Positions 1 to 48,092 of a DNA stretch of 64,000 nucleotides are shown piece after piece. Every line of letters starts with the position of its first letter. Within the stretch, counting starts at the first letter, position 1. The notes beneath the pieces are model-generated. The model did no database searches. It saw nothing but the letters and a program-made list of their open reading frames with translations, and was not told the DNA's origin. The position numbers and the translations under genes were made by a program. Source of the DNA: Firmicutes bacterium HGW-Firmicutes-7 (GTDB lineage: Bacteria; Bacillota; Clostridia; Lachnospirales; Vallitaleaceae); assembly GCA_002841375.1 (NCBI GenBank), contig PGZO01000004.1:62001-126000 (forward strand), given 5' to 3'.

Positions 1-8
1 TATAAATC

Positions 9-16493: not shown

Positions 16494-16509
16494 AAAATAT
16501 AATCAATTT

Positions 16510-16549: not shown

Positions 16550-16579
16550 GCCTTTTGTTATAATATAATATTTTTGATG

Positions 16580-17458: not shown

Positions 17459-17559
17459 AGTCGATTCTCCTATAATAATTTAGATGAAAGATTCATTGAC
17501 GCTAGTACATATAGTGACCATTATATCATATGGAAACTAAAGGATAAATAAAATATGTA

Positions 17560-29016: not shown

Positions 29017-29059
29017 AATGAGAAATGCAAGTCATGTGTTATTAGGTTGTCGACAAAGA

Positions 29060-29155: not shown

Positions 29156-29260
29156 CCTTTGCCTCTGTATCGTAAGCTTTATGAAAAAAACATTTATTAT
29201 AGGAATTTTATTGCTTGTTTCCAACCTGGGAGCAAGCTTTTCTGTTTTTAGCATCCGTGT

Positions 29261-29820: not shown

Positions 29821-30102
29821 ATGTCACAAGAAGCTTTAGGAATGATTGAAACAAAGGGCCTTGTAGGGGCAATTGAGGCTGCAGATGCAATGGTAAAGTC
29901 AGCAAACGTGGAATTAGTTGGGTACGAAAAAATCGGTTCAGGGTTGGTTACTGTTATGGTAAGAGGCGATGTAGGAGCTGTTAAAGCAGCTACAGATGCA
30001 GGAGCTGCAGCAGCTGAAAAAGTTGGACAGATAATTTCAACACATGTAATACCAAGACCACATCCAGATGTAGAAAAAATGATATCACCTGAAAAAAAGT
30101 AG
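29821..30102 (+). CDS. pduA: BMC hexameric shell protein PduA/PduJ-like
   Basis: This is a 93-residue single-domain BMC-H protein, the main facet tile of the shell. Visible features are [21 protein letters not shown] at the start, the pore-lining loop [21 protein letters not shown] near residues 37-57, and [12 protein letters not shown] at the C-terminus. The KIGSG pore is that of PduA, which passes diols and holds back aldehyde. A second, nearly identical protein is encoded at 36954. GGAGG precedes the ATG. It is the first gene of the operon. Confidence 0.96.
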
Positions 30103-30117
30103 AAGGAGGTTTAAAAA

Positions 30118-30903: not shown

Positions 30904-30925
30904 AGAATAATAAGGAGGGTACGAC

Positions 30926-32590: not shown

Positions 32591-32606
32591 GAGAGGAGGC
32601 ATATCG

Positions 32607-33251
32607 ATGGAGATCAATGAAAAAGTATTAAAAAGTATTATTGAAGAAGTTCTTCAAAATTTAAAGGTACAAGAGTCTGGGATTACTACTTCAAACGATG
32701 TAGCTGATTTGAAATTATCTTCTGTTGGACCAGCAGCTGTTGGAAAAAGAAAAGATGAAGTTATTATAGGGATTGCTCCTGCATTTGGAGAATATCAAAC
32801 TAAAACAATAACCAAGATACCTCATGGGAAAGTATTGAAAGAGATCATGGCAGGTATTGAAGAAGAAGGATTAGTACCTAGAGTAATAAGAGTACTTAGA
32901 ACATCTGATGTTTCGTTTATTGCACATAATGCTGCAACTTTAAGCGGTTCAGGCATTGGTATCGGAATTCAATCTAAAGGAACAACAGTTATTCATCAAA
33001 AGGATTTATTGCCTTTGAGTAATGTAGAATTATTTCCACAAGCGCCATTAATTACCCTAGACGTTTATAGAGCGATTGGAAGAAATGCAGCTAAATATGC
33101 AAAGGGTGAATCCCCAAGTCCAGTACCTACTATGAATGATCAAATGGCAAGACCTAAATATCAGGCAATTGCCGCTCTGCTTCATATAAAAGAAACAGAA
33201 CACGTTAAGCAAGATGCTCCGGCTGAAGAGCTTAAAGTAATATTCGAATAA
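32607..33251 (+). CDS. pduD: Diol dehydratase medium subunit PduD
   Basis: This is the 214-residue medium subunit of the dehydratase. GAGAGGAGG at 32591-32599 sets the start at ATG 32607, although the frame is open upstream inside pduC. The first 20 residues ([18 protein letters not shown]) form an amphipathic helix like the encapsulation peptide of Salmonella PduD. The body has [34 protein letters not shown] and [18 protein letters not shown], which help bind the cobalamin. Confidence 0.94.
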
Positions 33252-33264
33252 GGAGGAGGTTTAA

Positions 33265-33774
33265 ATGATGGACAATGCTGTTCTCGAGAAAATGATAAAA
33301 GAAGTTATGAGCTCAATGAATAAAGAAGATTCCTATACATCTAAAACAGAAAGTGCTCCAGGTGCAAGGATGACAGAGGCTAATTATCCTCTTAGTGAAA
33401 AAATGGGAAAAACCATAAAAGCACCTACTGGAAAGACATTAGATGAAATTACAATTGAAGGTGTTATGAATGGGACTATTACTGCAAATGACGTAAAAAT
33501 TGCTCCAGAAACATTAGAAATGCAAGCGCAGGTTGCTGAATCTGTTGGAAGAGATGCATTTGCTAGAAACCTTAGAAGAGCTGCAGAATTAATTGCTGTT
33601 CCTGATGCAAGGGTGCTTGAAATTTATAATGCGCTAAGACCTTATAGATCTACTAAAGCAGAATTGTTAGAAATAGCAGATGAACTTGAATCAAAGTATT
33701 GCTGTAAAATCAACAGTGCCTTTGTAAGGGAAGCAGCTATGTTATATGAAAGCAGAGGAAGGCTTAAAAAGTAA
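33265..33774 (+). CDS. pduE: Diol dehydratase small subunit PduE
   Basis: This is the 169-residue small subunit. The first 20 residues (DNAVLEKMIKEVMSSMN) form another amphipathic, encapsulation-type helix. The body contains APTGKTLDEITIEGVMNG and GRDAFARNLRRAAELIAVPDARVLEIYNALRPYR-type sequence, conserved in the family. AGGAGGAGG precedes the ATG; a second ATG follows one codon later. It completes the C-D-E enzyme. Confidence 0.94.
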   Translation: MMDNAVLEKMIKEVMSSMNKEDSYTSKTESAPGARMTEANYPLSEKMGKTIKAPTGKTLDEITIEGVMNGTITANDVKIAPETLEMQAQVAESVGRDAFARNLRRAAELIAVPDARVLEIYNALRPYRSTKAELLEIADELESKYCCKINSAFVREAAMLYESRGRLKK

Positions 33775-33792
33775 TATCTGGAGGGATTTTTT

Positions 33793-35601
33793 ATGAAAAT
33801 AATTGCAGGAATAGACATAGGTAATGCTAGCACTGAAACTGCTATTGGAAAAGTATATGATGATAACAAGGTAGAATTTCTTGGCAGTTCTTTAGTTAAT
33901 ACGACTGGAGTAAAGGGCACTAAAGATAATATTCCTGGAATTTATAAATCCTTAAAAAAAGCTTTGGAAGCATCAAAAATCAGTATGGAAGACCTTGATT
34001 TAATTAGAATAAATGAAGCTGCGCCTGTAATTGGAGACGTAGCTATGGAAACGATCACTGAGACAATAATTACAGAATCGACTATGATTGGTCATAATCC
34101 TACAACTCCTGGAGGCATTGGAATAGGAGTAGGAATTTCTACTCCTATAAACCAGCTTCAAGGGATGAAACCAGGAGATCAAGTTATAGTACTTATTCCA
34201 AAAGCTTATGAATTTAATCAAGCTTCAAAGATCATAAATGATGCATGGGATAGAGGTATTGAAGTAAAAGGTGCCATTGCAGAAAATGATGATGGTGTGC
34301 TTATTAATAACAGATTGATTAATAGTATACCGATTATTGATGAAGTTAATCTTTTTGAAAAGATACCTCTTAATATGTTAACTGCAGTAGAAGTGGCACA
34401 TGTGGGTCATGTAGTAGAAGTTTTATCAAATCCTTATGGTATAGCAACCGTTTTTAAATTAAGTAGTGAAGAGACCAAGTTGGTTGTTCCTATTGCAAGA
34501 GCGCTTATAGGAAATAGGTCAGCAGTTGTTATTAAAACGCCTAAGGGAGATGTAAAAGCAAGAAGCATACCAGCCGGTGAAATTATTATTGTTGGTGAAA
34601 AAATCAAAAGGAAAGTAGATGTTGATGATGGCGCACTAGCATTAATGAATAATTTGGAAATGTGCTCACCTATAATGGATATTCAAGGAGAAGCTGGAAC
34701 GAACGCAGGAGGAATGCTTGAAAGAGTGAGACACGTTATGGCTAGTCTTACAGACCAAAGTCATACGGATGTCAAAATAAAAGACCTTTTAGCGGTGGAT
34801 ACCATTTGTCCTCAGAAAGTACAGGGTGGTATAGCGGGTGAATATTCAATGGAAAATGCAGTAGGCATTGCTGCTATGGTAAAGGCTGATAGACTTCAAA
34901 TGAATATTATTGCTGATTTGTTGCAAGAGAAATTAGGGGTAAAAGTAGAGGTAGGTGGAGTTGAAGCTGAAATGGCTATAAACGGTGCCTTAACTACACC
35001 AGGAACGGATAAACCCCTTGCTATTATTGATATGGGAGCAGGTTCAACTGACGCATGCTTTATGACAAAAGATGGAAACGTTAAGCTTGTACATTTAGCT
35101 GGAGCAGGAAATATGGTAACATTGCTTATTCAAACTGAATTAGGTCTTGATAGTTTTGATCTTGCAGAAGATATCAAAAAGTATTCTTTGGCAAAGGCAG
35201 AAAGTCTTTTTCATATAAGGCATGAAGATGGTTCTGTAGAATTTTTTAGAGAACCGTTAGATCCTAAGCTCTTTGCAAGGGTTATTATTCTTAAGGAAAA
35301 CGAGATGGTTCCTATTAATCATCAAGTTTCTATTGAAAAAATTAAGTTGGTAAGAAAACAAGCGAAAGAAAAAGTTTTTGTTACCAATGCTTTAAGGGCA
35401 TTAAAGCAGGTCAGTGCTACAGGAGATATTAGAGCGTTAGATCATGTTGTTTTAGTAGGAGGTTCGGCCCTTGACTTTGAAGTGCCACAACTTGTAACAG
35501 ATGCATTATCTCAATTTGGTATTGTTGCAGGAAGAGGGAATATAAGAGGGACTGAAGGTCCAAGAAATGCCGTGGCTACAGGCTTAGTCCTTGTTAAATA
35601 A
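33793..35601 (+). CDS. pduG: Diol dehydratase reactivase large subunit PduG
   Basis: This is an ATP-dependent chaperone-like subunit that swaps damaged cobalamin out of the dehydratase. Its 602 residues have an actin/Hsp70-like ATPase fold, opening IAGIDIGNASTETAIG, with LAIIDMGAGSTDACFM near residue 416 as the second phosphate loop and VVLVGGSALDFEVPQ near the end. It works with PduH encoded downstream. GGAGGG precedes the ATG. Confidence 0.95.
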   Translation: MKIIAGIDIGNASTETAIGKVYDDNKVEFLGSSLVNTTGVKGTKDNIPGIYKSLKKALEASKISMEDLDLIRINEAAPVIGDVAMETITETIITESTMIGHNPTTPGGIGIGVGISTPINQLQGMKPGDQVIVLIPKAYEFNQASKIINDAWDRGIEVKGAIAENDDGVLINNRLINSIPIIDEVNLFEKIPLNMLTAVEVAHVGHVVEVLSNPYGIATVFKLSSEETKLVVPIARALIGNRSAVVIKTPKGDVKARSIPAGEIIIVGEKIKRKVDVDDGALALMNNLEMCSPIMDIQGEAGTNAGGMLERVRHVMASLTDQSHTDVKIKDLLAVDTICPQKVQGGIAGEYSMENAVGIAAMVKADRLQMNIIADLLQEKLGVKVEVGGVEAEMAINGALTTPGTDKPLAIIDMGAGSTDACFMTKDGNVKLVHLAGAGNMVTLLIQTELGLDSFDLAEDIKKYSLAKAESLFHIRHEDGSVEFFREPLDPKLFARVIILKENEMVPINHQVSIEKIKLVRKQAKEKVFVTNALRALKQVSATGDIRALDHVVLVGGSALDFEVPQLVTDALSQFGIVAGRGNIRGTEGPRNAVATGLVLVK

Positions 35602-35678
35602 GGCTTGTTCTGTTTAACTTTTTGCTTTAGTGAAATGCGTGCGTGAGGCATGTACATTCTTGTAAAATAGGTGATTAA

Positions 35679-36020
35679 ATGAATGAGACACTTGCAATAT
35701 ATATATGCTATGAAAATAAAATAACAGATAAACAGTTAATTGATTTAATAACTTATGGAATTGAAGAAGAAGGCATTCCATGTCATTTAAAAAGTGATTT
35801 ATGTTCCAATTTTAAAGAGCTCGCAATAATAGCTTCTAATGAATCCCAGTTGGACGTTGGAATCGGTATAGATGCGGCAGGAAATATGTGTTTGCATCAT
35901 TCGAAATTACCGGATCAATATTTTCTTTTTGAAAGTAACCATCAAAATGATAAGCTTAAACTAAGAAATATTGGTGTAAATGGTGCAAGACTCGTTAAGG
36001 GAATACCTTTTGTAGTTTAG
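35679..36020 (+). CDS. pduH: Diol dehydratase reactivase small subunit PduH
   Basis: This 113-residue protein is related in fold to the beta subunit of the dehydratase and pairs with PduG. Visible features are IYICYENKITDKQLIDLITYGIEEEGIP at the start, DVGIGIDAAGNMCLHH and the ending NIGVNGARLVKGIPF. There is a 77-base gap after pduG. A GGTGAT ribosome site precedes the ATG. Confidence 0.88.
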   Translation: MNETLAIYICYENKITDKQLIDLITYGIEEEGIPCHLKSDLCSNFKELAIIASNESQLDVGIGIDAAGNMCLHHSKLPDQYFLFESNHQNDKLKLRNIGVNGARLVKGIPFVV

Positions 36021-36046
36021 GGCTCCCTTAGAAAGGAGGAGATTTT

Positions 36047-36895
36047 TTGAATAATGCGTTAGGATTAGTTGAAGCCATAGGACGAGCAGCAGCTATTGTA
36101 GCTGTAGACACTATTTTAAAAGCTGCAAACGTTACTTTAATAGGGATAGAACCTAGTAAAGGAGGCGGTATGTACGCAATTAAAGTTGAAGGGGATGTTG
36201 GAGCAGTCACTGCGGCTGTAGATTCTATTAAATCCCTTGATGAACTTCGAAACAAAATATATACGAGTAAGGTTATTGCAAGGCCAGCGGAAGGCATTGA
36301 AAAGTTGATTTATAATTCAGTAACCCTTGGCTATCAAAAAAAGGTCAAAGATGCAATAAATGAAGTTATGAAGGAAGAAAGCAAAGAAGAAAGTAAAGAA
36401 GAAATTAAAGAAGAAATTAAAGAAGAAATTAAAGAAGAAGTAAAAGTGAAAGCGAAAATTAAAGAAGAAGTAAAGAAAGAAGAAGTAAAGAAAGAAGAAG
36501 TAAAGAAAGAAGAAGTAAAGAAAGAAGAAGTAAAGAAAGAAGAAGTAAAGAAAGAAGAAGTAAAAAAAGAAGAAGTAAAAAAAGAAGAAGTAAAGAAAGA
36601 AGAAGTAAAAAAAGAAGCTAAGAAAGAAATAAAATTAGAAGTAAAAGAAGAAGCAAAGAAAGAAGTAAAAGAAGAAGCAAAAGAAGAACTAAAAGTAGTA
36701 GCTAAGAAAGAAGTTAAAGAAGAAGCTAAAGTAAAAGTAGTAGAAGCAATAAAAGAAAGTACGCCGATCAAAGAAGTTAAAACAGAGGTGAAGGTTCCAA
36801 AAGAAACGTGTAATTTATGCAATGATTTAAAATGCAAAAGAAAAAGGGGAGAACCTAAAAACTTATGCATTCATTATAACGTTAAATCTACCTGA
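36047..36895 (+). CDS. pduK: BMC shell protein PduK with Lys/Glu repeat linker and cysteine tail
   Basis: This 282-residue minor shell protein is much longer than Salmonella PduK (about 160). Residues 1-90 form a BMC domain (NNALGLVEAIGRAAAIVAV). Residues about 105-245 form a highly charged Lys/Glu linker that includes nine consecutive KKEEV units, encoded by a 15-bp tandem repeat at about 36470-36611. The C-terminus has the PduK metal motif CNLCNDLKCKRKRGEPKNLC, probably an iron-sulfur or zinc site. The start is TTG 36047 after AAAGGAGGAG. The linker is probably an extended or helical arm inside the compartment. The repeat length may vary between strains by slippage. Confidence 0.9.
   Translation: MNNALGLVEAIGRAAAIVAVDTILKAANVTLIGIEPSKGGGMYAIKVEGDVGAVTAAVDSIKSLDELRNKIYTSKVIARPAEGIEKLIYNSVTLGYQKKVKDAINEVMKEESKEESKEEIKEEIKEEIKEEVKVKAKIKEEVKKEEVKKEEVKKEEVKKEEVKKEEVKKEEVKKEEVKKEEVKKEEVKKEAKKEIKLEVKEEAKKEVKEEAKEELKVVAKKEVKEEAKVKVVEAIKESTPIKEVKTEVKVPKETCNLCNDLKCKRKRGEPKNLCIHYNVKST
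36470..36611 (+). repeat. 15-bp tandem repeat within pduK (KKEEV x 9)
   Basis: A unit of AAGAAAGAAGAAGTA is repeated nine times with a few silent A/G changes, encoding Lys-Lys-Glu-Glu-Val each time. The reading frame is kept throughout. Flanking sequence (KEEIKEEIKEEIKEEV before; KEAKKEIKLEVKEEAKKE after) is an older, degenerate form of the same pattern, so the array seems to have grown by slippage. Confidence 0.95.
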
Positions 36896-36953
36896 ATATA
36901 TCCATATGCCCTATAAATTGTAGAGAGGTGTATTAAAAAAGGAGGCAACAAAA

Positions 36954-37229
36954 ATGTCTAAAGAAGCATTAGGAATGATCGAAACAAAAGGTTTGGTAGG
37001 CGCTATTGAAGCAGCAGATGCAATGGTTAAAGCAGCTAATGTTGAACTAGTAGGTTATGAAAAAATAGGCTCTGGGTTAGTAACGGTAATGGTAAGAGGC
37101 GATGTTGGTGCTGTTAAAGCAGCGACTGATGCTGGAGCTGGAGCAGCTAACAGAGTGGGAGAAGTAGTTTCTGTTCATGTTATTCCAAGACCGCATTCAG
37201 ATATTGAGAAACTCATTCCAGAAAAGTAG
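36954..37229 (+). CDS. pduJ: BMC hexameric shell protein, second PduA/PduJ copy
   Basis: This 91-residue BMC-H protein differs from the one at 29821 mainly near the C-terminus ([20 protein letters not shown]). It has the same KIGSG pore. At DNA level the two genes differ at many silent positions, so the duplication is old and not being homogenised. The position after pduK corresponds to PduJ in Salmonella order variants; the A versus J naming is arbitrary here. AAGGAGG precedes the ATG. Confidence 0.93.
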
Positions 37230-37238
37230 GTAGATGGT

Positions 37239-37895
37239 ATGAAAGAAGAAATACTCATCAAGATTGTAGCACAAGTAATTAGAAAATATGTTATTGACGC
37301 TATTTATGTTCCTGCGGGTGTGTCTAATAGGCACATCCACATTAAACAAGAAGATTTAGAAATTCTTTTCGGTAAAGATTATGAATTAAATAAATTAAAG
37401 GATCTAAAACAACCAGGCGAATTCGCCTCTAATGAAACAGTAACATTAGTTACAAAAAAGGCAACAATCCCAAAGGTAAGAATATTGGGGCCAATAAGAA
37501 AAGACACACAAGTTGAACTTTCTTTATCAGATGGTTTTCTGCTAGGAGTAAATAATATTCCTATTAGAGAGTCAGGAAATATTAAAGATTCAGAAGGCAT
37601 TATTGTTAGAGGACCTGCAGGAGAAATAGAAATTGAACAAGGTGCAATTGCTGCCCATAGACATATACATATGCCAAAAGATTTTGCTGACTTATACGGT
37701 TTTAAAGATAAGGAAATTGTGTCAGTCACTACAGAAGGCATAAGATCTGTTACTTTTAATAATGTTATGTTAAGGGTCTCAGAAAAATATGCATTAGAAA
37801 TACACCTTGATTTAGATGAGGCAAATGCAGCGAGGGTTAAAAATGGAGATCTATTAAAAATTGTAAGACATGAAGGTGGAGCATATGGATATTGA
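37239..37895 (+). CDS. pduL: Phosphate propanoyltransferase PduL
   Basis: PduL converts propionyl-CoA (from PduP) and phosphate to propionyl-phosphate and recycles CoA inside the shell. The protein is 218 residues with two zinc-binding motifs: VSNRHIHIKQEDLE near residue 29 and AAHRHIHMPKDFADLYGF near 135. The first 20 residues (KEEILIKIVAQVIRKYV) form an encapsulation-type helix. It starts 9 bases after the shell gene. The next gene overlaps its end by 11 bases. Confidence 0.95.
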   Translation: MKEEILIKIVAQVIRKYVIDAIYVPAGVSNRHIHIKQEDLEILFGKDYELNKLKDLKQPGEFASNETVTLVTKKATIPKVRILGPIRKDTQVELSLSDGFLLGVNNIPIRESGNIKDSEGIIVRGPAGEIEIEQGAIAAHRHIHMPKDFADLYGFKDKEIVSVTTEGIRSVTFNNVMLRVSEKYALEIHLDLDEANAARVKNGDLLKIVRHEGGAYGY

Positions 37896-38715
37896 TAGAG
37901 TAAATCAAGACATAAAGGCCTTTGAAATTTTAATTGAGGATAAAATATGTGGAGAATTTACAGGAGAGCTATTTACTGGAGTTGACCTTGGTACAGCATA
38001 TATTGTTTTAAGTGTAGTTGATAAAAATGGAAAAGCCATTGCAGGCGCTAAAAAAAGAGCATCCGTTGTAAAGGATGGAGTCGTAGTTGATTACATTGGT
38101 GCAATTAAAATAGTTAGAGAATTAAAAAGAGAACTTGAAGAAATTATCGGAATAAAATTATTAAAGGCTGCTACAGCGATCCCGCCAGGTGTCTCAGAAG
38201 GATCTGTAAAAGCAATCGTAAACGTGGTTGAAGCTTGTGAATTTGAAGTTGTAAATGTCGTAGATGAACCGACTGCAGCAGCAAAAGTATTATGTGTTAA
38301 AGATGGAGCAGTCGTTGATGTTGGTGGTGGAACTACCGGTATTTCAGTAATTGAAAGTGGAAATGTTACTTTTACAGCAGATGAAGCTACAGGTGGACAC
38401 CATATGAACCTTGTATTAGCTGGTAGATACAACTTGAATTATGAAGAAGCTGAAATATTGAAGCATACGAAAGATAGAGAATGGGATGTGTTTCCAGTTA
38501 TAGCGCCTGTTGTTGAGAAAATGGCTTCAATAGTCAATCGATTTATATATGGAAAGGAAGTATCTACCATCTATATTGTAGGTGGTGCAGCAACCTTTGT
38601 GGAATTTGAAAAAGTATTCACGCAAAAAACTGGATTAATGGTTATTAAGCCTTACAATCCAATGTTAGTAACACCACTAGGAATAGCATTAAGTTGTTTA
38701 AGTGAGGTGAAATAG
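37885..38715 (+). CDS. eutJ: EutJ-like chaperone ATPase
   Basis: This 276-residue protein with Hsp70/actin-like ATPase fold is similar to EutJ of ethanolamine operons. Phosphate loops are visible as FTGVDLGTAYIVLSVVD near residue 30, VDVGGGTTGISVIESG near 142 and YIVGGAATFVEFEKVF near 231. Its role in BMCs is uncertain; it may act as a chaperone or a reactivation factor. The frame is open a few codons earlier, but GGTGGAG at 37875-37881 fits ATG 37885. Finding EutJ in a Pdu-type operon is common outside enteric bacteria. Confidence 0.85.
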   Translation: MDIDRVNQDIKAFEILIEDKICGEFTGELFTGVDLGTAYIVLSVVDKNGKAIAGAKKRASVVKDGVVVDYIGAIKIVRELKRELEEIIGIKLLKAATAIPPGVSEGSVKAIVNVVEACEFEVVNVVDEPTAAAKVLCVKDGAVVDVGGGTTGISVIESGNVTFTADEATGGHHMNLVLAGRYNLNYEEAEILKHTKDREWDVFPVIAPVVEKMASIVNRFIYGKEVSTIYIVGGAATFVEFEKVFTQKTGLMVIKPYNPMLVTPLGIALSCLSEVK

Positions 38716-38717
38716 TA

Positions 38718-39374
38718 TTGAAGGAAGAAACACTTACTTATATTGTTAATGAAGTAGTCAGAAGGGTAAAGCTTCTTCTCAATACCCACAGCGGGCTACT
38801 CATAATAAGAAAAAATACAGACTACATATTGCTTAACATCTTATTGATGTCAATGAAGAATAATGGATATATTTTTGATGTGTTGGTGTTAACGGACTCA
38901 AAAGAATTAATAGAATTAGACGACGCCCTTGAAGCGCTAACCTTTATAAAAGCGCCAGAGCTACAGAACCATGTTGAAGGGATCCATAAATATGAAGTGG
39001 TTATTGTAAGTAATTTAAATATAATGGAAATTGGGAAAATAAGTAATCTAAAAATTGAAGATGATTTTTTGTATTTATTATATGAAGCGTTAAAAGAAGG
39101 AAAAACTGTAATTGGTTTCTCTAAAGACTTGGACATTAAGAACAATATTAATCTTAGAAACTTAACGTTAAAGTTGAGCGCTACACTTGAAGAAATTGGA
39201 CTTAAGCTCATAACGAGGAAAGATGCATTAATAAGGCTTGATAGTAATATTATCACCTTAGAGCAGGTTAAGGGCATAAACGGCGCAAGTGTTATTATTA
39301 ATAAAACCTCAATATTAACAAGTACAGCGAAAGATTATTTGTCTCAAAATAAAATTGAAATATTAAGAAGGTAG
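38718..39374 (+). CDS. BMC operon protein of unknown function at the pduM position
   Basis: This 218-residue protein is encoded where PduM lies in many Pdu operons, between eutJ/pduL and pduN. Residues 1-20 (KEETLTYIVNEVVRRVKLLL) form an amphipathic helix like known encapsulation peptides. The middle has alternating hydrophobic strands and helices, as in a flavodoxin-like fold. The C-terminus (SILTSTAKDYLSQNKIEILRR) is of the kind seen at the end of several Pdu and Eut proteins, including PduM. The protein is longer than Salmonella PduM (about 163), so I do not assign the name. The start is TTG 38718 after GAGGTGA. Confidence 0.6.
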   Translation: MKEETLTYIVNEVVRRVKLLLNTHSGLLIIRKNTDYILLNILLMSMKNNGYIFDVLVLTDSKELIELDDALEALTFIKAPELQNHVEGIHKYEVVIVSNLNIMEIGKISNLKIEDDFLYLLYEALKEGKTVIGFSKDLDIKNNINLRNLTLKLSATLEEIGLKLITRKDALIRLDSNIITLEQVKGINGASVIINKTSILTSTAKDYLSQNKIEILRR

Positions 39375-39385
39375 GGTGAAAAGAT

Positions 39386-39649
39386 ATGTATTTAGCAGAA
39401 GTCAGAGGTCACGTTGTTGCAACAACTAAAAATGAACAGTTAGTAGGGAAAAAGCTCTTAATCGTGCAACCATTAAGCACGAACTTAGAACCATATGGTG
39501 AGGCTATAGTAGCTATTGATACAGTCGGGGCAGGCTTTTCAGATAGAGTTTTGATTGCTACAGGGAGTTCGGCAAGAATTATTTTTAATGAGAATAGTCC
39601 TATTGACGCTGCTATTGTTGCTATCATTGATACCCTTGAAAGGCATTAG
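39386..39649 (+). CDS. pduN: BMC pentameric vertex protein PduN (EutN/CcmL family)
   Basis: This 87-residue pentamer-forming protein caps the vertices of the shell. Features typical of the family are MYLAEVRGHVVATTKNEQLVGKK at the start, AIDTVGAGFSDRVLIATGSSAR in the middle and the C-terminal IDAAIVAIID. It is the only vertex protein gene in the operon. AGGGTGAAAAG precedes the ATG. Confidence 0.95.
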   Translation: MYLAEVRGHVVATTKNEQLVGKKLLIVQPLSTNLEPYGEAIVAIDTVGAGFSDRVLIATGSSARIIFNENSPIDAAIVAIIDTLERH

Positions 39650-39657
39650 GTGATGCT

Positions 39658-40611
39658 ATGAGTAAGATATATACGAAAGGTGGAGACAAAGGAGAAACCG
39701 GCCTTTATGGTGGAACAAGAATACTTAAGTCTTCGAAAAGAGTAACAGCTTATGGAAGTGTGGACCAAGCAAATGCAGCGATAGGCGTAGCAAGTGTGAA
39801 AATTAAAGATCATTTACTAAGAGATCTATTAAAAATTATTCAAAACAAACTATTTGTTGTTGGTGGAGAATTGGCCTCTGATGATAAGGGGATGGAAAAG
39901 CTTAAACAGCAAATTTTAGAAGAAGATGTCGTTTTTCTGGAAAGAGTAATTGATGAATTATCCAGTAAACTGCCTAGTTTAACCAGTTTCATCATTCCTG
40001 ATGCCTCAGAGGAGGCGGCCTATCTTCACGTGGCAAGGACTGCAGTCAGGCAGGCAGAACGAGAAATTGTTCATCTATGTGATGAACAGGATATAAGAGC
40101 TTACCTATTGGCGTTTATCAATAGATTATCTGATTTATTATTTATTATGAGCAGGTATGTTGTTGAGGTGACACCGCCGGAAGGTAATATTGTGAAGCAT
40201 GAAGAGGGCAAAGACCTCATGACCTTAGACTTAGCGAATATGATCGTGCTTTCATCATTGAAGAAAGCGGAGGAATTGAAAGTCCCTGTCGTAATATCGA
40301 TTGTAGATGATGGGGGAAATCTTATACTTCTAAATAGAATGCAAAATGCACATATAGGAAGTATAGATATTTCCATAAATAAAGCGTATACCTCCATGGC
40401 TTTTAAGCTCACGACTGAAATGCTCGGAAAGCTTTCCTTGCCAGGTGAAGCACTTTACGGTATTCAAAATACGAATAATGGTAAGATCGTCGTTTTTGGA
40501 GGAGGTCTTCCCATATGGTTGAATGGAAAACTAATCGGTGCAATTGGTGTAAGTGGTGGTAGTGTTGAACAAGACATTTTGATCGCTGAGGAAGCTTTGA
40601 AAAACTTATAA
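39658..40611 (+). CDS. pduO: Corrinoid adenosyltransferase PduO with GlcG-type C-terminus
   Basis: PduO transfers the adenosyl group from ATP to cob(I)alamin, giving the dehydratase cofactor. Residues 1-175 form the PduO-type adenosyltransferase, with KIYTKGGDKGETGLYGGTR at the ATP site, AYGSVDQANAAIG and, further on, RTAVRQAEREIV. Residues about 185-317 are a GlcG/DUF336 (PduO-C) domain that binds heme in some relatives. Its role here is unknown. It starts 8 bases after pduN. Confidence 0.95.
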   Translation: MSKIYTKGGDKGETGLYGGTRILKSSKRVTAYGSVDQANAAIGVASVKIKDHLLRDLLKIIQNKLFVVGGELASDDKGMEKLKQQILEEDVVFLERVIDELSSKLPSLTSFIIPDASEEAAYLHVARTAVRQAEREIVHLCDEQDIRAYLLAFINRLSDLLFIMSRYVVEVTPPEGNIVKHEEGKDLMTLDLANMIVLSSLKKAEELKVPVVISIVDDGGNLILLNRMQNAHIGSIDISINKAYTSMAFKLTTEMLGKLSLPGEALYGIQNTNNGKIVVFGGGLPIWLNGKLIGAIGVSGGSVEQDILIAEEALKNL

Positions 40612-40630
40612 TTTGAAGAGGTGAAAAACT

Positions 40631-42031
40631 ATGAATATTGATTCAAAACAACTAGAAAAAATCGTGAAATTAGTAGCAAATAAAATCGAAGATTTAGAAA
40701 CTAAACCTATAGCAGGTTCTAGTAGATTAGGTATTTTTGAAGATATGAATGATGCTGTGGAAGCTGCTTATGTGGCTCAAAAAGCGCTTTTTGAATTAAC
40801 ACTTTCCGACAGGAAAAAAATTATTGACGCGATAAAAGCACATCTTAGGTCTTACATTGAAGAAATATCAATGCTTGCTTTTGAAGAGACTGGAATGGGA
40901 AGATATGAACATAAAGTCATTAAAAATACTTTAGTAATTGATAAAACACCATCTGTAGAGGATTTAAAAGCCGGCGTATTCACAGGAGATGATGGTCTTA
41001 CATTGCTAGAAATGTCTCCTTTTGGTGTAATTGGTGCCATATCTCCATCTACAAATCCATCAGAAACAGTAATCTGTAATGCCATTGGAATGATAGCAGC
41101 AGGAAACTCAGTCGTATTTTCACCTCATCCAGGTGCTTACAAGACATCTAATAGAGCAGTTGAACTTATTAATGAAGCCATTCAATTCGTAAATGGACCC
41201 ATTAACCTAGTTTGTACGGTAGATCATCCAAGTCTTGATAAAGCCAATATTATGATGCACCATCCGAAAATCAATTTGATTTGTGCTACGGGTGGTCCTG
41301 CAGTGGTTAAAGCGGTTCTATCTACAGGAAAGAAAGCAATTGGTGCAGGGGCTGGTAATCCACCTGTATTTGTAGATAAAACAGCTAATATTGAAAACGC
41401 AGCAAGAGATATTGTTTTAGGTAGTAGCTTTGATAACAACCTTCCATGTATTGCAGAAAAAGAAGCAATTGTAATGGACGAGGTATGTGATTATCTTATT
41501 TTCAATATGAAGAATAATGGCGCTTATGAAGTTAAAGATAAGGAACTCTGCTTATTAGAAAAATTAGTTCTCTGTGATAAAGGCTATCCCAAAAAAGAAT
41601 TTATAGGGAAAAATGCAGATTATATCCTATCAAAAATAGGTATTGACGTTGACCCATCTATCGTGTTGATTATTATGGAAGTATCTAAAGACCATCCATT
41701 TGTACAAGAAGAGCTTATGATGCCAATCCTTCCAATTGTAAGAGTAAAAGATGCAAAAGAAGGCATTGAACTGGCATGTCAAGTAGAACATGGATTTAGA
41801 CATACTGCAATTTGCCATTCTAGAGATATTGAGGTGCTTTCAGAGATGGGAAGAAGAATTCAAACAACAATATTTGTTAAAAATGGGCCATCTTACGCAG
41901 GGATAGGCGTTGGAGGAGAAGGCTTTACAACTTTTACGATAGCGGGACCAACAGGAGAAGGCTTAACGTCAGCGAGCACCTTTACAAGAAAACGTAGGTG
42001 TGTTTTAGTTAATGGCTTTAACATTAAATAA
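40631..42031 (+). CDS. pduP: CoA-acylating propionaldehyde dehydrogenase PduP
   Basis: PduP oxidises propionaldehyde to propionyl-CoA with NAD inside the compartment. It is a 466-residue aldehyde-dehydrogenase-fold protein with catalytic Cys273 in FDNNLPCIAEKEAIV. The first 20 residues (NIDSKQLEKIVKLVANKIE) form an encapsulation peptide. A short linker separates it from the enzyme domain. No adjacent alcohol dehydrogenase (PduQ) is present to recycle NADH, which leaves PduS or an unlinked enzyme for that task. GAAGAGGTG precedes the ATG. Confidence 0.95.
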   Translation: MNIDSKQLEKIVKLVANKIEDLETKPIAGSSRLGIFEDMNDAVEAAYVAQKALFELTLSDRKKIIDAIKAHLRSYIEEISMLAFEETGMGRYEHKVIKNTLVIDKTPSVEDLKAGVFTGDDGLTLLEMSPFGVIGAISPSTNPSETVICNAIGMIAAGNSVVFSPHPGAYKTSNRAVELINEAIQFVNGPINLVCTVDHPSLDKANIMMHHPKINLICATGGPAVVKAVLSTGKKAIGAGAGNPPVFVDKTANIENAARDIVLGSSFDNNLPCIAEKEAIVMDEVCDYLIFNMKNNGAYEVKDKELCLLEKLVLCDKGYPKKEFIGKNADYILSKIGIDVDPSIVLIIMEVSKDHPFVQEELMMPILPIVRVKDAKEGIELACQVEHGFRHTAICHSRDIEVLSEMGRRIQTTIFVKNGPSYAGIGVGGEGFTTFTIAGPTGEGLTSASTFTRKRRCVLVNGFNIK

Positions 42032-42088
42032 ACGCCATAGGTATTTTAGTAAATGGGATCAACATTAAACAAACCCGAGGTGAGAAAA

Positions 42089-43414
42089 GTGGATAATTTT
42101 ATTAATATGATTAAGGATTCAGGTGTTGTTGGTGCAGGTGGTGCAGGTTTTCCTACACATGTTAAATTTGATACGAAAGCAGATTTTGTCATTGTAAATG
42201 GCGCAGAGTGTGAGCCTTTACTTAGGGTTGATCAAATTTTAATGGATATTGAAGCTGATAAAATTCTCTTTGCACTTGATCAATGCGTTAAGCATGTTGG
42301 TGCGAAAGAGGGTATTATTGGGCTGAAAAATAAGTATGCGAAAGCAATCTCTTCGCTTACAAAGGCTTTAGAGAAATATCCTAACCTTCGTATTCATTTA
42401 TTAGATAATGTCTATCCTGCAGGAGATGAACAGTATTTGGTTTATGTAGTAACAGGAAGAATTGTACCAGAGGGTGGAATTCCTATAATGGTGGGAACCA
42501 TAGTCACGAATGTAGAAACCTTGCTGAATATTTATAATGGAATCCACAATATACCAGTCACTGAAAAGTATTTAACAATTGCGGGTGCGGTTAAAAATCC
42601 GATTACAATAAAAGTTCCATTAGGAATATCGGTGCGAGAGGTTATTCATCTAGCAGGAGGGCCCGTTTACGAAAAATACAAAGTCATTGATGGCGGGCCT
42701 ATGATGGGGAAAATACTTGAATCTATTGATGATCCCGTTAAAAAAACTTCTAAAGGATATATTGTATTGCCAGAAACACATCCGTTAATAAAGAACAAAG
42801 AAAAAAAGGTTTCTAGGGTTCTTAAGGAAGCACAAACAGCTTGTTGTCATTGCGATCTTTGTACAGATGTGTGCCCTAGGTATCTTCTGGGACACAAGCT
42901 GCATCCCTCCAAGCTTATGAGAATTTCAAGCTATGGATCTTTAGGAGATGGGAATGCAACTTTAGATGAGGCCTTTTTGTGCTGTGAATGTGGACTCTGT
43001 GAACAAGCATGTATCATGAATCTTCAACCTTGGAAGGTCAATATTAATATTAAAAAGCAACTTACAGAGATGGGAATAAAAAATCAAAATAATAGAAAGC
43101 CAACAGAAGTCAATCCATTTTTTAAGTATAGAGGTTTTCCGGTAAAAAAACTCATCTACAGAATTGAATTAGATCAATATGACGTCCAAGCACCATTAAC
43201 TGAAACAGATGTAATTTTCAAAGAAGTCACGATTGTGAACAAGCAACATATAGGTGCCCCCTCCGTACTTTGGGTAAAAGAAGGAGAAATGGTCACAAAA
43301 GGTCAACTTATATTTAGAGCGAAAGATCATGCCTTAGGTGCAAATATTCATTCGAGTATATCTGGTATAGTCCTTAAAGCTTGTGATGGTAAAGTCATCA
43401 TTAAATGTACATAG
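42089..43414 (+). CDS. pduS: Cobalamin reductase-type iron-sulfur flavoprotein PduS
   Basis: PduS is an RnfC-like protein that reduces cobalamin for PduO and may also handle NADH. It is about 441 residues from GTG 42089, chosen because GAGGTGA at 42077-42083 is well placed and because the result begins DNFINMIKDSGVVGAGGAGF as in PduS. An ATG at 42053 lacks a ribosome site. Two [4Fe-4S] motifs are visible: CCHCDLCTDVCP near residue 252 and CCECGLCEQAC near 297. An N-terminal NADH/FMN-binding region and a SLBB-like segment flank them. Confidence 0.92.
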   Translation: MDNFINMIKDSGVVGAGGAGFPTHVKFDTKADFVIVNGAECEPLLRVDQILMDIEADKILFALDQCVKHVGAKEGIIGLKNKYAKAISSLTKALEKYPNLRIHLLDNVYPAGDEQYLVYVVTGRIVPEGGIPIMVGTIVTNVETLLNIYNGIHNIPVTEKYLTIAGAVKNPITIKVPLGISVREVIHLAGGPVYEKYKVIDGGPMMGKILESIDDPVKKTSKGYIVLPETHPLIKNKEKKVSRVLKEAQTACCHCDLCTDVCPRYLLGHKLHPSKLMRISSYGSLGDGNATLDEAFLCCECGLCEQACIMNLQPWKVNINIKKQLTEMGIKNQNNRKPTEVNPFFKYRGFPVKKLIYRIELDQYDVQAPLTETDVIFKEVTIVNKQHIGAPSVLWVKEGEMVTKGQLIFRAKDHALGANIHSSISGIVLKACDGKVIIKCT

Positions 43415-43440
43415 AGAGGCCATGACTTAAAGGAGGAAAT

Positions 43441-43992
43441 ATGAAAAATTCTATTGGTTTATTAGAGTTTAAAAGTATTGCAAAAGGGATAGAGGTAACC
43501 GATGAGGTGTTAAAATCCTCTAATGTAGAACTCATAGCTGCAAACCCAATCTGTCCTGGTAAATATATTAGTATTCTTTCAGGAGATGTAGGGGCGATAA
43601 ACAATGCTGTAGAGATAGGAAAGAAACTAGGTGGCGTATTTCAAATAGAAGCACTGGTGATATCTAATATTCATCCTGATATTTTTCCTGCCTTAACAGG
43701 AACCTCCGAAGTGAATTCAATTAATTGTCTTGGAATTATTGAAACCATGTCTTGTCTTAGTTCAATAATGGTAGCAGATACAGCCATTAAGGCTTCTAAT
43801 ATAAGAATTATTGAAATCAGAATTGCAAGAGGCTTAGGTGGAAAAGGATTTACCATCATATCTGGTGAAGTATCATCTGTGAAAAAAGCTATCCAGGCAG
43901 TTGAAGAAAAGTATATTTCCACTGGGGAAATATTATGTGCTTCAACGATAGCAAATCCAGAAAAAGAACTTATTAAAAGGATTTTTGGTTAA
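43441..43992 (+). CDS. pduT: BMC tandem shell protein PduT (iron-sulfur pore)
   Basis: This 183-residue BMC-T protein has two BMC domains. Cys38, in NPICPGKY, is at the same place as the cysteine that holds a [4Fe-4S] cluster at the threefold axis of Salmonella PduT, so it probably relays electrons across the shell, perhaps to PduS encoded just before. The second domain begins around residue 97 (NCLGIIETMSCLSSIMVADTA). AAGGAGG precedes the ATG. A second PduT paralogue is encoded at 45241. Confidence 0.92.
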   Translation: MKNSIGLLEFKSIAKGIEVTDEVLKSSNVELIAANPICPGKYISILSGDVGAINNAVEIGKKLGGVFQIEALVISNIHPDIFPALTGTSEVNSINCLGIIETMSCLSSIMVADTAIKASNIRIIEIRIARGLGGKGFTIISGEVSSVKKAIQAVEEKYISTGEILCASTIANPEKELIKRIFG

Positions 43993-44071
43993 GTCATTTT
44001 ATTATTTATACCCCCATATAATTTTTGATAAAGTGAAAGATATAAGTATTAACTGCTTATATATGAGCTAA

Positions 44072-44108
44072 AGCTATATCGTCACCTCGGTGATATAGCT
44101 TTCCCCTA
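44072..44108 (+). terminator. Hairpin between pduT and the butyrate-kinase homologue
   Basis: GCTATAT and ATATAGC, with inner CAC and GTG, form a stem with a small bulge in the 146-base gap, followed by a short T/C run. It is weak as a terminator and may only reduce readthrough. No separate promoter is evident after it. Confidence 0.4.
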
Positions 44109-44138
44109 GCTCAGCGGTATATAGTAAAGGAGAAAATC

Positions 44139-45215
44139 ATGAATATTTTTAAGTTACTAATTATTAATCCAGGGTCAACATCAACTAAAGTAGCCATATT
44201 TGAAAATGAAAGTGAAATATATAGTAAGACAATTCGTCATGATGCTGAGGAATTGTTGGCATATACCAGCATATTTTCACAATACCCATTTCGAAAAGCA
44301 ACTATTTTAGACGCGCTTCATGAAGAAAAATTTGATTTAACTACATTAGATGCGATTATTGGAAGAGGCGGCATGCTTAGGCCACTGAAAGGTGGTGTTT
44401 ACGAAGTAAATAAGAATATGTTAAAGGATTTGGAATCAGGTGAATATGGAGAACATGCTTCTAGCCTTGGGGCTAAATTAGCCTTAGAAATTGGAAGTCC
44501 CCTTCATATTCCTTCCTATATTGTTGATCCAGTTGTTGTAGATGAGCTCGAGGAAATTGCTCGAGTATCTGGGATACCAGAAATAAAAAGGAAAAGTATT
44601 TTTCACGCATTGAATCAAAAAGCAGTTGCTAGAAAAGCAGCAAAAGAGCTGGGATCAACCTATGATCAACTTAATTTTGTTGTAGCCCACCTTGGTGGCG
44701 GTATATCTGTTGGTGCCCATAAGAAAGGACGCGTTATAGATGTTAATAATGCTGTGGATGCAGAAGGCTCTTTTTCACCTGAACGTAGTGGTTCAGTACC
44801 GGTAGGTGATCTTGCTAAACTTTGCTACTCAGGAAAATATACCTATCATGAAATTAAAAAGAAAATTACTGGTAAAGGTGGACTAATTGCTTATTTAGGA
44901 ACATCGGATGGTAGAGAAGTTGAAAGCCGAATTGACAATGGTGACGAAAAAGCAACGCTTATTTATGAAGCAATGGCTTATCAAACCGCAAAAGAGATAG
45001 GTGCTTATGCCACTGTATTAAAAGGACAAGTGGATGCAATTATTTTAACTGGCGGATTGCTTTATGATAGAAATATTAAGAAATGGTTAGTAGAGAGGAT
45101 TGGATTTATAGCACCGGTTATAGTCTATCCAGGAGAAGATGAAATGGCTGCATTGGCAGAAGGTGGACTTAGAGTTCTTCGTGGCCAAGAAAAATCTATA
45201 TCCTACCAACAATGA
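44139..45215 (+). CDS. buk: Butyrate kinase (possible propionate kinase of the BMC pathway)
   Basis: This is a 358-residue acetokinase-family enzyme that makes ATP from acyl-phosphate. LLIINPGSTSTKVAIFENE is the first phosphate motif; VAHLGGGISVGAHKKGRVIDVNNAVDAEGSFSPERSGS includes the Buk-type centre. It closes the pathway by turning the acyl-phosphate from PduL into acid and ATP, the role held by PduW in Salmonella. Sequence places it with butyrate rather than propionate or acetate kinases, so the true acyl chain is uncertain. It sits between two pduT genes. Confidence 0.9.
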   Translation: MNIFKLLIINPGSTSTKVAIFENESEIYSKTIRHDAEELLAYTSIFSQYPFRKATILDALHEEKFDLTTLDAIIGRGGMLRPLKGGVYEVNKNMLKDLESGEYGEHASSLGAKLALEIGSPLHIPSYIVDPVVVDELEEIARVSGIPEIKRKSIFHALNQKAVARKAAKELGSTYDQLNFVVAHLGGGISVGAHKKGRVIDVNNAVDAEGSFSPERSGSVPVGDLAKLCYSGKYTYHEIKKKITGKGGLIAYLGTSDGREVESRIDNGDEKATLIYEAMAYQTAKEIGAYATVLKGQVDAIILTGGLLYDRNIKKWLVERIGFIAPVIVYPGEDEMAALAEGGLRVLRGQEKSISYQQ

Positions 45216-45240
45216 TTTTGGAGGAGAAGGGGGAGTGGAC

Positions 45241-45780
45241 ATGGAAAGTAGCATAGGTTTGTTTGAATTTTATTCAATTTCTGATGGTTTGAAAATGACT
45301 GATATTCTATTAAAAAGTTCAAATGTTCATATTCATAAGAATGAAATAATTTGTCCGGGTAAATATGCGCTACTGATCAAAGGAGATCTGAAGGCGGTTA
45401 GTAATGCAGTAAGTCGAGCAAAGTCTGAGAAGATGACGTCAATGATTAAAGCAGAGCTGATTCCAGATATCTCAGACAAAGTATTTGAAGGCTTAAATAA
45501 AAACATCGATGAATTAAATGCTGATGCAGTAGGAGTCTTAGAAACTAAAAATTACGTAATTTCTCTTGTTTTAGCTGATTTAATGGTGAAAAGCGCTCGT
45601 ATCACGATTCTCAAAATTTTAGATAGATTAGGCATTGTGGGAAAGGGTATTATCATTTATAGTGGATCAACTTCTCAGGTGGATAGTGCTCATAACTGTG
45701 CGATCGGGTCAAAATATGCTGAGAACATCGTTGCTTCAAATACAATTAATAAACCTGACTCCAATTTTTTTAATATTTAA
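45241..45780 (+). CDS. Second BMC tandem shell protein, PduT paralogue
   Basis: This 179-residue BMC-T protein is related to PduT at 43441 (shared plan SIGLxEFxSI...DxLLKSSNV...ICPGKY). Cys38 in NEIICPGKYA again coincides with the iron-sulfur ligand. The second domain (GVLETKNYVISLVLADLMVKSARI) is more divergent, and the C-terminus is short. GAGGAGAAGGGGGA precedes ATG 45241; GTG 45235 is an alternative. Two such trimers could offer two electron routes or form a mixed shell tile. Confidence 0.85.
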   Translation: MESSIGLFEFYSISDGLKMTDILLKSSNVHIHKNEIICPGKYALLIKGDLKAVSNAVSRAKSEKMTSMIKAELIPDISDKVFEGLNKNIDELNADAVGVLETKNYVISLVLADLMVKSARITILKILDRLGIVGKGIIIYSGSTSQVDSAHNCAIGSKYAENIVASNTINKPDSNFFNI

Positions 45781-45935
45781 ATAAAATATTAGCTTTCTCA
45801 CAGACGTGTTTTCTTGAATTAAGGAAAGTTCCATAAAAGTAATCGTATATTAAATGACCAAATAGTAAGCGTTTTATTCTAGTGACATTTTAGATTTAGA
45901 AAATAAAAAAGGTTAAAATGACGGAGGATGAAAAT

Positions 45936-46994
45936 ATGGATAATGGACGATTAAACAAAGAACTTTTAGGCAATGGTGAGCGTGATGAAAACGTAGATAT
46001 TACAGATATCATTAGTGTTGAGTTTTTGCAAAAATTTCAAGATGCGTTTTCAAATGCATTAGGGGTGGCTAGTTTAACGACGAATAAAGAGGGTATACCG
46101 ATTACAGAAGGGTCAAACTTCACAGATTTTTGTATGAATTTGTCAAGAGGGTCGAAAGAAGGACTTAGAAGATGTATGGAAAGTGATGCTTTTGGAGGTT
46201 CTGAAAGTGCAAAGACTGGAAAACCAGCTGTATATTTTTGTGGAAGTGGATTAATGGATTTCGGTGCACCTATTATGCTACATGGTAAGCAAATAGGAGC
46301 AATTCTAGGAGGTCAAACCCTTCCAGCACCTCCAGAAAAAGAGAAATTTATTAAAATTGCTCAAGAGATTGGCGTAGATCCAGATGAATATTTAACAGCA
46401 CTTAATAAAGTTAAAATCGTACCAGAAGAGCAGCTAAGAGCAGCAGCAGAACTGCTTTTTATCGTTGCAAATGAAATATCTAAAACGGGATATCAAAGAC
46501 TTGAATTAATGAGAATGTCAGCAAAATTGCATGAAAATGTTTTGCAAATGATGGCTACAATTGAAGAATTAACAGCTTCTGCATCTGAAGTTACGTTTAA
46601 TCAAAATGCATTAAATAAAGAGATACGAAATGTTAGTACTATTTCAGAAGAAATTAATGATGTGACTGAATCAATTAAGGATATTGCTGATGAAACGCGC
46701 TTATTGGGGTTAAACGCAGCAATTGAAGCAGCAAGAGCAGGTGAATCTGGACTAGGGTTTAGTGTTGTGGCAGAAGAAATACGCAAATTATCTAGTGAGT
46801 CAAAAAACACGGTTAATAAAATTAAAAAGTTTACTTCGCAAATTAATGATTCGGTTAATAAAACGTCGGAAATGGGAAATTCAACCCTTTTGACAACACG
46901 AGAACAAGAGGAAGCGATTGGAAGTATTGTAGGTGCAATAGAAGATGTTGCTACCATGACAAAATTATTGAATTCACTAGCTTCTGATAATTAA
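45936..46994 (+). CDS. Soluble chemoreceptor with PocR sensing domain
   Basis: This 352-residue cytoplasmic protein has no membrane segment. Residues about 25-190 are a PocR domain ([70 protein letters not shown]). Residues about 220-350 form a methyl-accepting chemotaxis signalling domain, with the CheA/CheW-binding tip [21 protein letters not shown] and [13 protein letters not shown]. The frame is open from ATG 45918, but GGAGGATG at 45923-45930 sets ATG 45936. It lies right after the BMC operon and just before cheW, so it probably directs swimming toward the BMC substrate sensed inside the cell. Confidence 0.9.
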
Positions 46995-47028
46995 GTGTAT
47001 CTAAATAATAAAATAGTGGGTGATGAAT

Positions 47029-47499
47029 ATGGCAAAATTTCAAATAATGGTCTTTGAAATTGATGATAACAGTTATGGTGTAGATATCAAGAACATTAAT
47101 GGTATTGTGAAAGCGAAAAATTATAAAATTATACCATTGCCAAATTATTCGGAGTTTATTAAAGGGATAACAAATGTAAGAGGAAAAGTATACCCGGTTA
47201 TTAGTATGCGAAAGAAATTTGGGTTTGAAGAGATTCCGATAAATTCAGATACCAAGTTTGTACTAATAAAAGTTGCGGATAAAGAGCTTGCAATAATTGT
47301 TGATGAAGTAACAGATATTCTTAAATTAGATGATAAAGATATTATAAGTGCTAGTTATTTGAATAAAGATAATGAATACATTGCTTTTATTGTGAAATTA
47401 GAGGAAGCTTTAGTAGTTGGATTAAATATGGTCAAAATATTTGACTCTCAAGAAATATTAAATATTGATATTCAAGGATCACTTGAAGAAGGTGTGTAA
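47029..47499 (+). CDS. cheW: Chemotaxis adaptor CheW
   Basis: This is a 156-residue single CheW domain (FQIMVFEIDDNSYGVDIKNINGIV at the start; ITNVRGKVYPVISMRKKFG in the middle). It couples receptors to CheA. It begins 34 bases after the PocR chemoreceptor, and GGTGAT at 47019-47024 fits ATG 47029, though GTG 47020 and ATG 47023 are open in frame. A dedicated adaptor beside a dedicated receptor suggests a small add-on chemotaxis module, since CheA is not encoded in the window. Confidence 0.92.
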   Translation: MAKFQIMVFEIDDNSYGVDIKNINGIVKAKNYKIIPLPNYSEFIKGITNVRGKVYPVISMRKKFGFEEIPINSDTKFVLIKVADKELAIIVDEVTDILKLDDKDIISASYLNKDNEYIAFIVKLEEALVVGLNMVKIFDSQEILNIDIQGSLEEGV

Positions 47500-47696
47500 G
47501 TGCAAGTGCAATTGCAATTGCTATTATGACAAAATTGTATAATGCATTTTGAAAAATTTTCTATATTGAAAAAGATTGCTTGATTTAATGCAAAATTGTA
47601 TTATGGGTATTGCTAAAAAACCTTTAATATATATAATAAGGAGTATAGCTTGTAAATAATTTTTAATTGGCGATAACGATATTACATATTTAACGA
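47500..47696. other. Intergenic region between cheW and the B12 promoter
   Basis: GCAATTGCAATTGC at 47508-47521 is a perfect 14-bp palindrome 9 bases after the cheW stop. CAAAATTGTATAATG near 47528 and CAAAATTGTATTATG near 47591 are near repeats. No gene is seen. Confidence 0.4.
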
Positions 47697-47724
47697 TTGA
47701 TTATTGGTCAAAATGTGATATAAT
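47697..47724 (+). promoter_or_regulatory. Promoter of the cobalamin operon
   Basis: TTGATT at 47697-47702 and TATAAT at 47719-47724 are 16 bases apart, about 85 bases before the riboswitch. A further TATAAT at about 47795 has no matching -35. Confidence 0.6.
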
Positions 47725-47807
47725 ACAAAAGAGAATATTCATAAAATAACATAAAGATAATAATAGTAAAATAATATATAATAACAATTTAATGTATAAT
47801 AAAATAT

Positions 47808-48002
47808 AGGTGCCTTTGTTTTATGAAGGTTAAAAGGGAAAACGGTGAAAAACCGTTACAGCCCCCGCTACTGTATGTGGTAAAGAAGCTTTTGGAATAT
47901 ACCATTGAGTATTGTATAAGTACTTGAGAAGGTAAAAAGCTATGATAATCCACAAGTCAGGAAACCTGCCTATAGATTACTTTTTCAAGCTTTCGGAGGG
48001 AG
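47808..48002 (+). ncRNA. Cobalamin (B12) riboswitch
   Basis: The conserved core of the cobalamin riboswitch is present in order: AGGTGCC at 47808, TTAAAAGGGAA near 47830, ACGGTGAAAAACCG, ACAGCCCCCGCTACTGTA near 47858-47875, and the B12 box AAGTCAGGAAACCTGCC at 47954-47970. It binds adenosylcobalamin and, with the terminator at 48055, should shut off the cobalt-uptake and cobalamin-synthesis operon when the vitamin is plentiful. Confidence 0.95.
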
Positions 48003-48054
48003 AGACTATTGATTATGCCATAAGAACATGAAATTATGGATAATACTATATAGT

Positions 48055-48092
48055 ATGGAATCTTCAAGAGAAGATTCCATTTTTGTTTTTTT
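48055..48092 (+). terminator. Riboswitch-controlled intrinsic terminator
   Basis: ATGGAATCTTC at 48055-48065 pairs perfectly with GAAGATTCCAT at 48070-48080 (loop AAGA), followed by TTTTTGTTTTTTT. It lies between the B12 box and the cbiM ribosome site, the expected expression platform. Confidence 0.93.

Follow-up and report, generated by a model that had tools for sequence, protein, structure and literature searches.

A soluble PocR chemoreceptor and the CheW adaptor encoded behind it, which follow the pdu operon for a propanediol-degrading bacterial microcompartment (BMC) in Firmicutes bacterium HGW-Firmicutes-7, probably make up a portable two-gene sensor-adaptor cassette of the cytoplasm that feeds CheA and has been placed beside pdu in this lineage. 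The window, that is, the whole stretch of DNA analysed, is 64,000 nucleotides of contig PGZO01000004.1, and unprefixed coordinates refer to it. The pdu operon (29821–45780, + strand) encodes shell proteins, the PduCDE diol dehydratase, the PduG reactivase, PduO, PduP, PduS, a butyrate-kinase-like protein and two PduT-like proteins. Upstream of it on the same strand, Pfam identifies a PocR histidine kinase (26665–28014) and an AraC-type response regulator (28015–29016), the make-up of the PDU1D type as given in the main text of Axen (2014, PMC4207490). Between the response regulator gene and pduA, positions 29054–29161 contain 23-nt arms, 96% complementary, around 62 nt; an exact copy of one arm is absent among 226 collected loci.

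The receptor and CheW genes share the strand of the pdu operon, whose last gene, for a PduT-like shell protein, lies 5′ of them and is separated from the receptor ATG by 155 bases. From 45780 to 48055, the + strand has no terminator-like site except one at 46442, inside the receptor gene, and the site at 48055 is the own terminator-like site of a cobalamin riboswitch (47791–47987, +; Rfam RF00174, 119.9 bits) that starts the next unit. Because no such site separates the pair from pdu, transcription of pdu, when active, may run on into the two genes. An imperfect 19-nt palindrome (47497–47526) overlaps the CheW stop codon.

The mechanical open reading frame of the receptor spans 45918–46994 and encodes 358 amino acids. 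Since GGAGG precedes the ATG at 45936, we take this as the better start, giving a protein of 352 amino acids (45936–46994, +). Pfam assigns it a PocR domain (PF10114; 46005–46493, residues 30–192 of the 358-residue frame; E 4.6e-58, 196 bits, cut-off 23.9) and an MCPsignal domain with a recognisable tip (PF00015; 46608–46967, residues 231–350; E 3.5e-26, 92.5 bits, cut-off 34.6). Both scores are far above their cut-offs, and the matches are therefore not due to chance. The PocR domain was reportedly named by Anantharaman and Aravind in 2005. The highest 19-residue Kyte-Doolittle mean in the receptor is 1.21, compared with 2.55 to 3.12 in four control receptors, and a value of 1.6 is reached by two of the 54 members of the PocR-receptor family. 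The first-pass annotation had described the receptor as lacking a membrane segment and its PocR domain as necessarily sensing in the cytoplasm, and the hydropathy bears out both statements.

The signalling hairpin is of a short form. Between tip motif and C terminus the receptor has 94 residues, against 166–170 in 15 of the 19 further receptors encoded in the genome and 196 to 416 in the remaining four. Its C-terminal arm is ~72 residues shorter than in those 15, or ~10 heptads fewer per arm, which fits a place near the 24-heptad class, as estimated from arm length. Such arms are presumably too short for the methylation region of long receptors. In the full-length model (pLDDT 87.8), helix is assigned from 164 to 350. 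The tip reads TRLL, departing from the TNLL found in 14 of the 16 other receptors of this genome in which the tip was read, which leaves its entry into a standard array less than certain. Receptors with 24 heptads have been tied to CheA classes F6 and F7, according to the available portion of the report on such receptors (PMC7534058), a point that may count against the cassette reading.

The predicted structure of the PocR domain (pLDDT 93.3) resembles GAF and IclR-type domains. A sequence search for solved relatives gave no credible hit (best E 0.041, PhzF), and Foldseek with the domain model returned nothing at E 0.001 or better (best 3.5e-3, the NifA GAF domain). VIA-align with the same model gave many GAF/IclR-type rows near Z 8–10, with the N-terminal part of DhaR at Z 9.4; these rows single out no ligand. 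Three cysteines, C72, C86 and C108 (358-residue numbering; codons 46131–46133, 46173–46175 and 46239–46241), are present in all 46 aligned receptors, and C89 in 36 of them. Most family members, for example the receptor at L029:5005-6012, keep C86xxC89 and C108-H109, whereas the subgroup of the window receptor is without C89 and H109. The four-cysteine pattern of most orphan receptors could be a metal site.

Unlike most of the family, the window receptor has S89-D90, and G109 in place of H109. Among the 46 aligned receptors, S89-D90 is shared only by those of L023, L024 and L090. It also occurs in all of the seven PocR kinases read at BMC loci and in three PocR proteins encoded at other kinds of loci; because of the latter, the motif hints at a common ligand and is no proof of one. 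We consider it possible, if somewhat doubtful, that the ligand is the diol or some other compound from the pdu pathway. That the receptor instead senses a non-diol signal, such as redox state, a metal or a ligand held by the three conserved cysteines, and stands beside pdu by an accident of insertion, strikes us as unlikely. The invariance of these cysteines argues for such a signal, as do the absence of BMC genes from 16 of 17 tested genomes with orphan receptors only and the variable content of the slot beside pdu (both below), but the window receptor itself differs from most of the family at positions 89 and 109, and the PocR domains of pdu kinases keep the cysteines, which hence do not point away from a diol.

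The gene for the adaptor (47029–47499, +) begins 34 bases behind the receptor gene, the spacing given in the first-pass annotation, when translation starts at ATG 47029; with the in-frame GTG at 47020 the gap would be 25. The protein contains PF01584 alone (residues 8–144 of 159; E 4e-28, 98.2 bits, cut-off 23.5). We asked how often a PocR receptor has such a companion among 54 loci with a receptor of at least 320 amino acids, drawn from a scan of one genome per species together with order and phylum samples; the order and phylum scans scored five first-look candidates per genome, and receptor rows below 320 amino acids (three shown) fall outside the 54. A CheW gene lies within 65 bases downstream of the receptor at nine loci, the window included. 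At two others (G207 and Fusibacter), CheW and a CheA-like gene come before the receptor, and the remaining 43 have neither arrangement, so an adaptor is not always needed in cis. On the receptor tree the CheW label requires 3 changes, against a mean of 10.2 when labels are shuffled, and none of 500 shuffles gave a value as low. Near-copies are present among the nine pairs (two Heliobacterium species account for four), which therefore amount to fewer than nine independent cases. Three records in a plasmid collection match the receptor, all at less than 60% identity.

A two-residue insertion (N-Y as aligned; 47119–47124, +) is present in all nine CheWs encoded directly 3′ of a PocR receptor. It is missing from the three other CheWs of the genome and from two aligned CheWs of the PDB. 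Because the pair recurs and the nine downstream CheWs have this insertion in common, the CheW appears to behave as a dedicated partner, and the earlier description of it as private to the receptor agrees with this sequence evidence. Its closest relative is the Petroclostridium CheW (44% identity), and the Petroclostridium receptor belongs to the same four-member clade as the window receptor. The other members of that clade, from Fusibacter and G042, have no directly downstream CheW. In G207 (L091), the CheA-like gene lies at 10548-11657 (−), CheW at 10146-10535 and the receptor at 9080-10138; in Fusibacter (L154), the CheA-like gene, cut at the locus start, lies at 1-987 (+), CheW at 1032-1430 and the receptor at 1402-2490. 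These CheA-like proteins of ~330-370 amino acids have a Pfam CheW domain and, in one case, a marginal dimerisation domain, with no Hpt, P2 or ATPase domain. Such a kinase-less CheA may serve as a scaffold.

The genome (4.08 Mb in 89 contigs) has three flagellin matches and 20 receptor genes, counted from 21 matches because one frame gave two. One contig carries, in a row, FliR, FlhB, FlhA, an FlhF-like GTPase, CheB, CheA, CheW, CheC, CheD and a sigma-70 factor, and a second cluster (C36) consists of CheA, CheW, CheR, CheB and an MCP. Both CheAs are full, with Hpt, P2, dimerisation, ATPase and CheW domains. The first-pass annotation would have been abandoned for a genome devoid of motility genes; flagellar and che genes are present. 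Its observation that neither CheA nor other che genes are nearby stands for CheA: the window has no other ORF with an MCP or CheW domain, and the contig has no other CheW-domain gene and thus no CheA. For CheR, CheB and CheY the observation goes beyond our scan of the window, which covered MCP and CheW domains. The next MCP matches on the contig are ~40 kb and ~98 kb away. A sigma-D promoter pattern matched nothing upstream of the receptor or of the 19 other receptors and was set aside as uninformative.

With two full CheA genes elsewhere in the genome, CheA is available in trans, and the partner would most likely be the one in the flagellar operon. Signalling to the C36 CheA, with an output other than swimming, seems improbable to us. 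That cluster does hold a second complete CheA set and lies beside response regulators, but sequence identity does not single out the C36 CheW, which matches the cassette CheW at 26%, against 29% for the flagellar CheW and 31% for the stand-alone C16 CheW. Least credible is that the two genes are passengers and have no output today, as the divergent tip and the G+C content of the CheW gene (0.278 vs. 0.36 for the pdu genes) might suggest, since both frames are intact and have Shine-Dalgarno-like sequences, the receptor keeps the conserved tip residues of the family, and third-position G+C equals that of pdu genes. Composition as a mark of foreign origin was rejected: the third-position value of 0.204 for receptor and CheW is at the low edge of six pdu genes (0.204 to 0.273) and gives no sign either way.

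How firmly the pair belongs to pdu was judged from relatives. In a congener (G002), the pdu operon, the kinase and the regulator are all present in synteny (61–97% identity by gene) and the riboswitch is kept, yet the receptor is absent. In blastn, homology to the congener extends to 45781, one base beyond the PduT-like stop, and resumes at 47768, leaving a slot (45782–47767) that in the congener holds an acetyl-CoA hydrolase/transferase family gene and an MFS transporter (L168:14768-16078 and 16131-17474). By its gene content in the two sequences, this slot, which separates pdu from the cobalamin unit, is a variable site for accessory genes. Within the family, the receptor occurs in one of 22 genomes, that of the window, and PduC in several of the 22. 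No PocR receptor was found at 30 other PduC loci (27 from the order and 3 from elsewhere, with 5 to 40 kb fetched for each), and none of 53 flanks of other receptor loci contained shell genes, as judged with a model built from the window's own shell proteins and with only ~1 to 1.4 kb of flank at six loci. BMC genes are present in seven other receptor genomes; there the receptors are on contigs separate from those genes, except for one in G786, which is ~198 kb from them. Across 392 genomes of the order, 16 have a full-length receptor, 28 have PduC and 2 have both, which is chance level (1.14 expected, p 0.32). By conservation in relatives, these sequence comparisons do not make the receptor an accessory gene of pdu BMC loci. 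The first-pass annotation had presented the pair as a module for the BMC substrate and suggested looking for its conservation beside BMC loci. That the pair belongs to such loci is not supported, given its absence from the other PduC loci and from the syntenic slot of the congener and the lack of shell genes in the flanks of the other receptor loci, and the case for a link to the BMC substrate is weak.

Other MCPs were found at four of the 30 PduC loci (G175, G068, G207 and G350), none of them matching PocR. Enrichment of MCPs at pdu loci was dismissed, as about five would be expected at the density of this genome (20 in 4.08 Mb, by hand arithmetic). In G350, a membrane chemoreceptor (L198:7274-9049, +; HAMP, 591 amino acids) heads a same-strand locus encoding aldolase-like and shell-like proteins and PduC. 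In G207 (L197:2559-4676, +), G068 and G175, which belong to one genus, a membrane chemoreceptor of ~700 amino acids is divergent from a DeoR-like/aldolase-like/PduC operon, and the sensor of the G207 receptor is of PDC/Cache type.

A possible tie to microcompartments appears when genomes with the paired form are set against those with orphan receptors only. Of the 8 paired-form genomes, 7 have BMC genes and 6 have PduC; for the 17 orphan-only genomes the numbers are 1 and 0 (p ~1e-4 for each). The comparison, made post hoc, tested BMC in 25 of the 47 receptor genomes, the other 22, all orphan-only, lying outside it, and many of the orphan-only genomes come from two gut families. When the window genome is left out, the paired-form counts are 6 of 7 for BMC and 5 of 7 for PduC; with families also collapsed, they are 5 of 6 vs. 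1 of 6 for BMC (p 0.04) and 4 of 6 vs. 0 of 6 for PduC (p 0.03). We regard this co-occurrence as a lead. What speaks for a BMC tie is only the gene order and strand in this genome, the co-occurrence in trans and the S89-D90 motif.

These same points would be expected of a receptor devoted to the pdu compartment, sensing the diol or an intermediate that leaks out of it and produced along with the pdu proteins, and so would the short gap to pdu with no terminator-like site in it. We hold this special case to be rather unlikely. Against it stand the missing receptor in the congener and at the other PduC loci, the flanks of other receptor loci with no shell gene found in them, the chance-level co-occurrence in the order, the occurrence of S89-D90 away from BMC loci and Petroclostridium, which has the pair twice and no BMC; the favourable co-occurrence test is itself post hoc and falls to p 0.04 after family collapse. 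A looser version, in which the paired form serves compartment-making bacteria for metabolosome taxis, we would likewise not expect to hold; in it, the soluble receptor would steer swimming by the internal substrate or an escaped intermediate and be tied to the compartment in trans, not through gene order. The word CTTGAATTAAGG occurs at just two places in the genome, one upstream of pduA (29776) and one upstream of the receptor (45813). We rejected it as a shared operator: 3 of 12 other intergenic regions longer than 100 bases in the window have a 12- or 13-base word in common with the region upstream of pduA, a length of 12 with low complexity left out is reached by 45 of 1000 first-order Markov sequences, the congener is without the word, and the word was chosen for being shared.

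For the portable cassette, which we prefer, the following route can be proposed. The N-terminal, GAF-like PocR domain would read a small cytoplasmic molecule and pass the signal along a long helix to the short hairpin, whose tip would hold CheW and CheA. The cassette CheW, with its two-residue insertion, would be the receptor's own adaptor and dock it to CheA in trans. Changes in CheY-P would then let the swimming bias follow the metabolite. In this lineage the pair stands after pdu and ahead of the cobalamin unit, where the congener has other genes.

If this is correct, the cassette would illustrate how a soluble receptor joins the chemosensory machinery of the cell through an adaptor of its own, and cells could swim by what they metabolise, not by surface contact. 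The CheW insertion offers a marker for counting such pairs, and the co-occurrence with BMC genomes turns microcompartment-linked taxis, formerly a vague idea, into a testable one. In the open-access literature, where subscription papers are mostly missing, no title or abstract concerned chemoreceptors encoded at BMC loci or carrying a PocR domain, and neither an insertion-bearing CheW of a receptor's own nor a kinase-less CheA beside a receptor was found.

Receptors fused to PocR are already known as a kind, and so are soluble receptors of the short type. The megaplasmid of Lachnospira eligens encodes an orphan receptor annotated as 'PocR ligand-binding domain-containing protein', whose match to the window receptor (35% identity over 84% of the query) suggests the same two domains; the CheW is a feature of the window pair. 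PocR regulators, including the PDU1D kinase/response-regulator pairs in the main text of Axen (2014, PMC4207490), of which this pdu locus has one, use the same sensor domain, but the output here is an MCP hairpin rather than a kinase or DNA-binding domain; the words chemotaxis, CheW and chemoreceptor do not occur in that main text. The Vibrio cholerae receptors VC1406 and VCA0864, of the 24-heptad class, likewise have no membrane region and join the sensor domain straight onto a short hairpin, in the portion of the report available (PMC7534058). They carry two PAS domains, whereas the window receptor has PocR and its own CheW, with the heptad class estimated from arm length. CheV, in the available text of Ortega and Zhulin (2016, PMC4742279), is likewise an extra coupling protein for one receptor type; here that part would be played by a single-domain CheW with a two-residue insertion, encoded beside its receptor.
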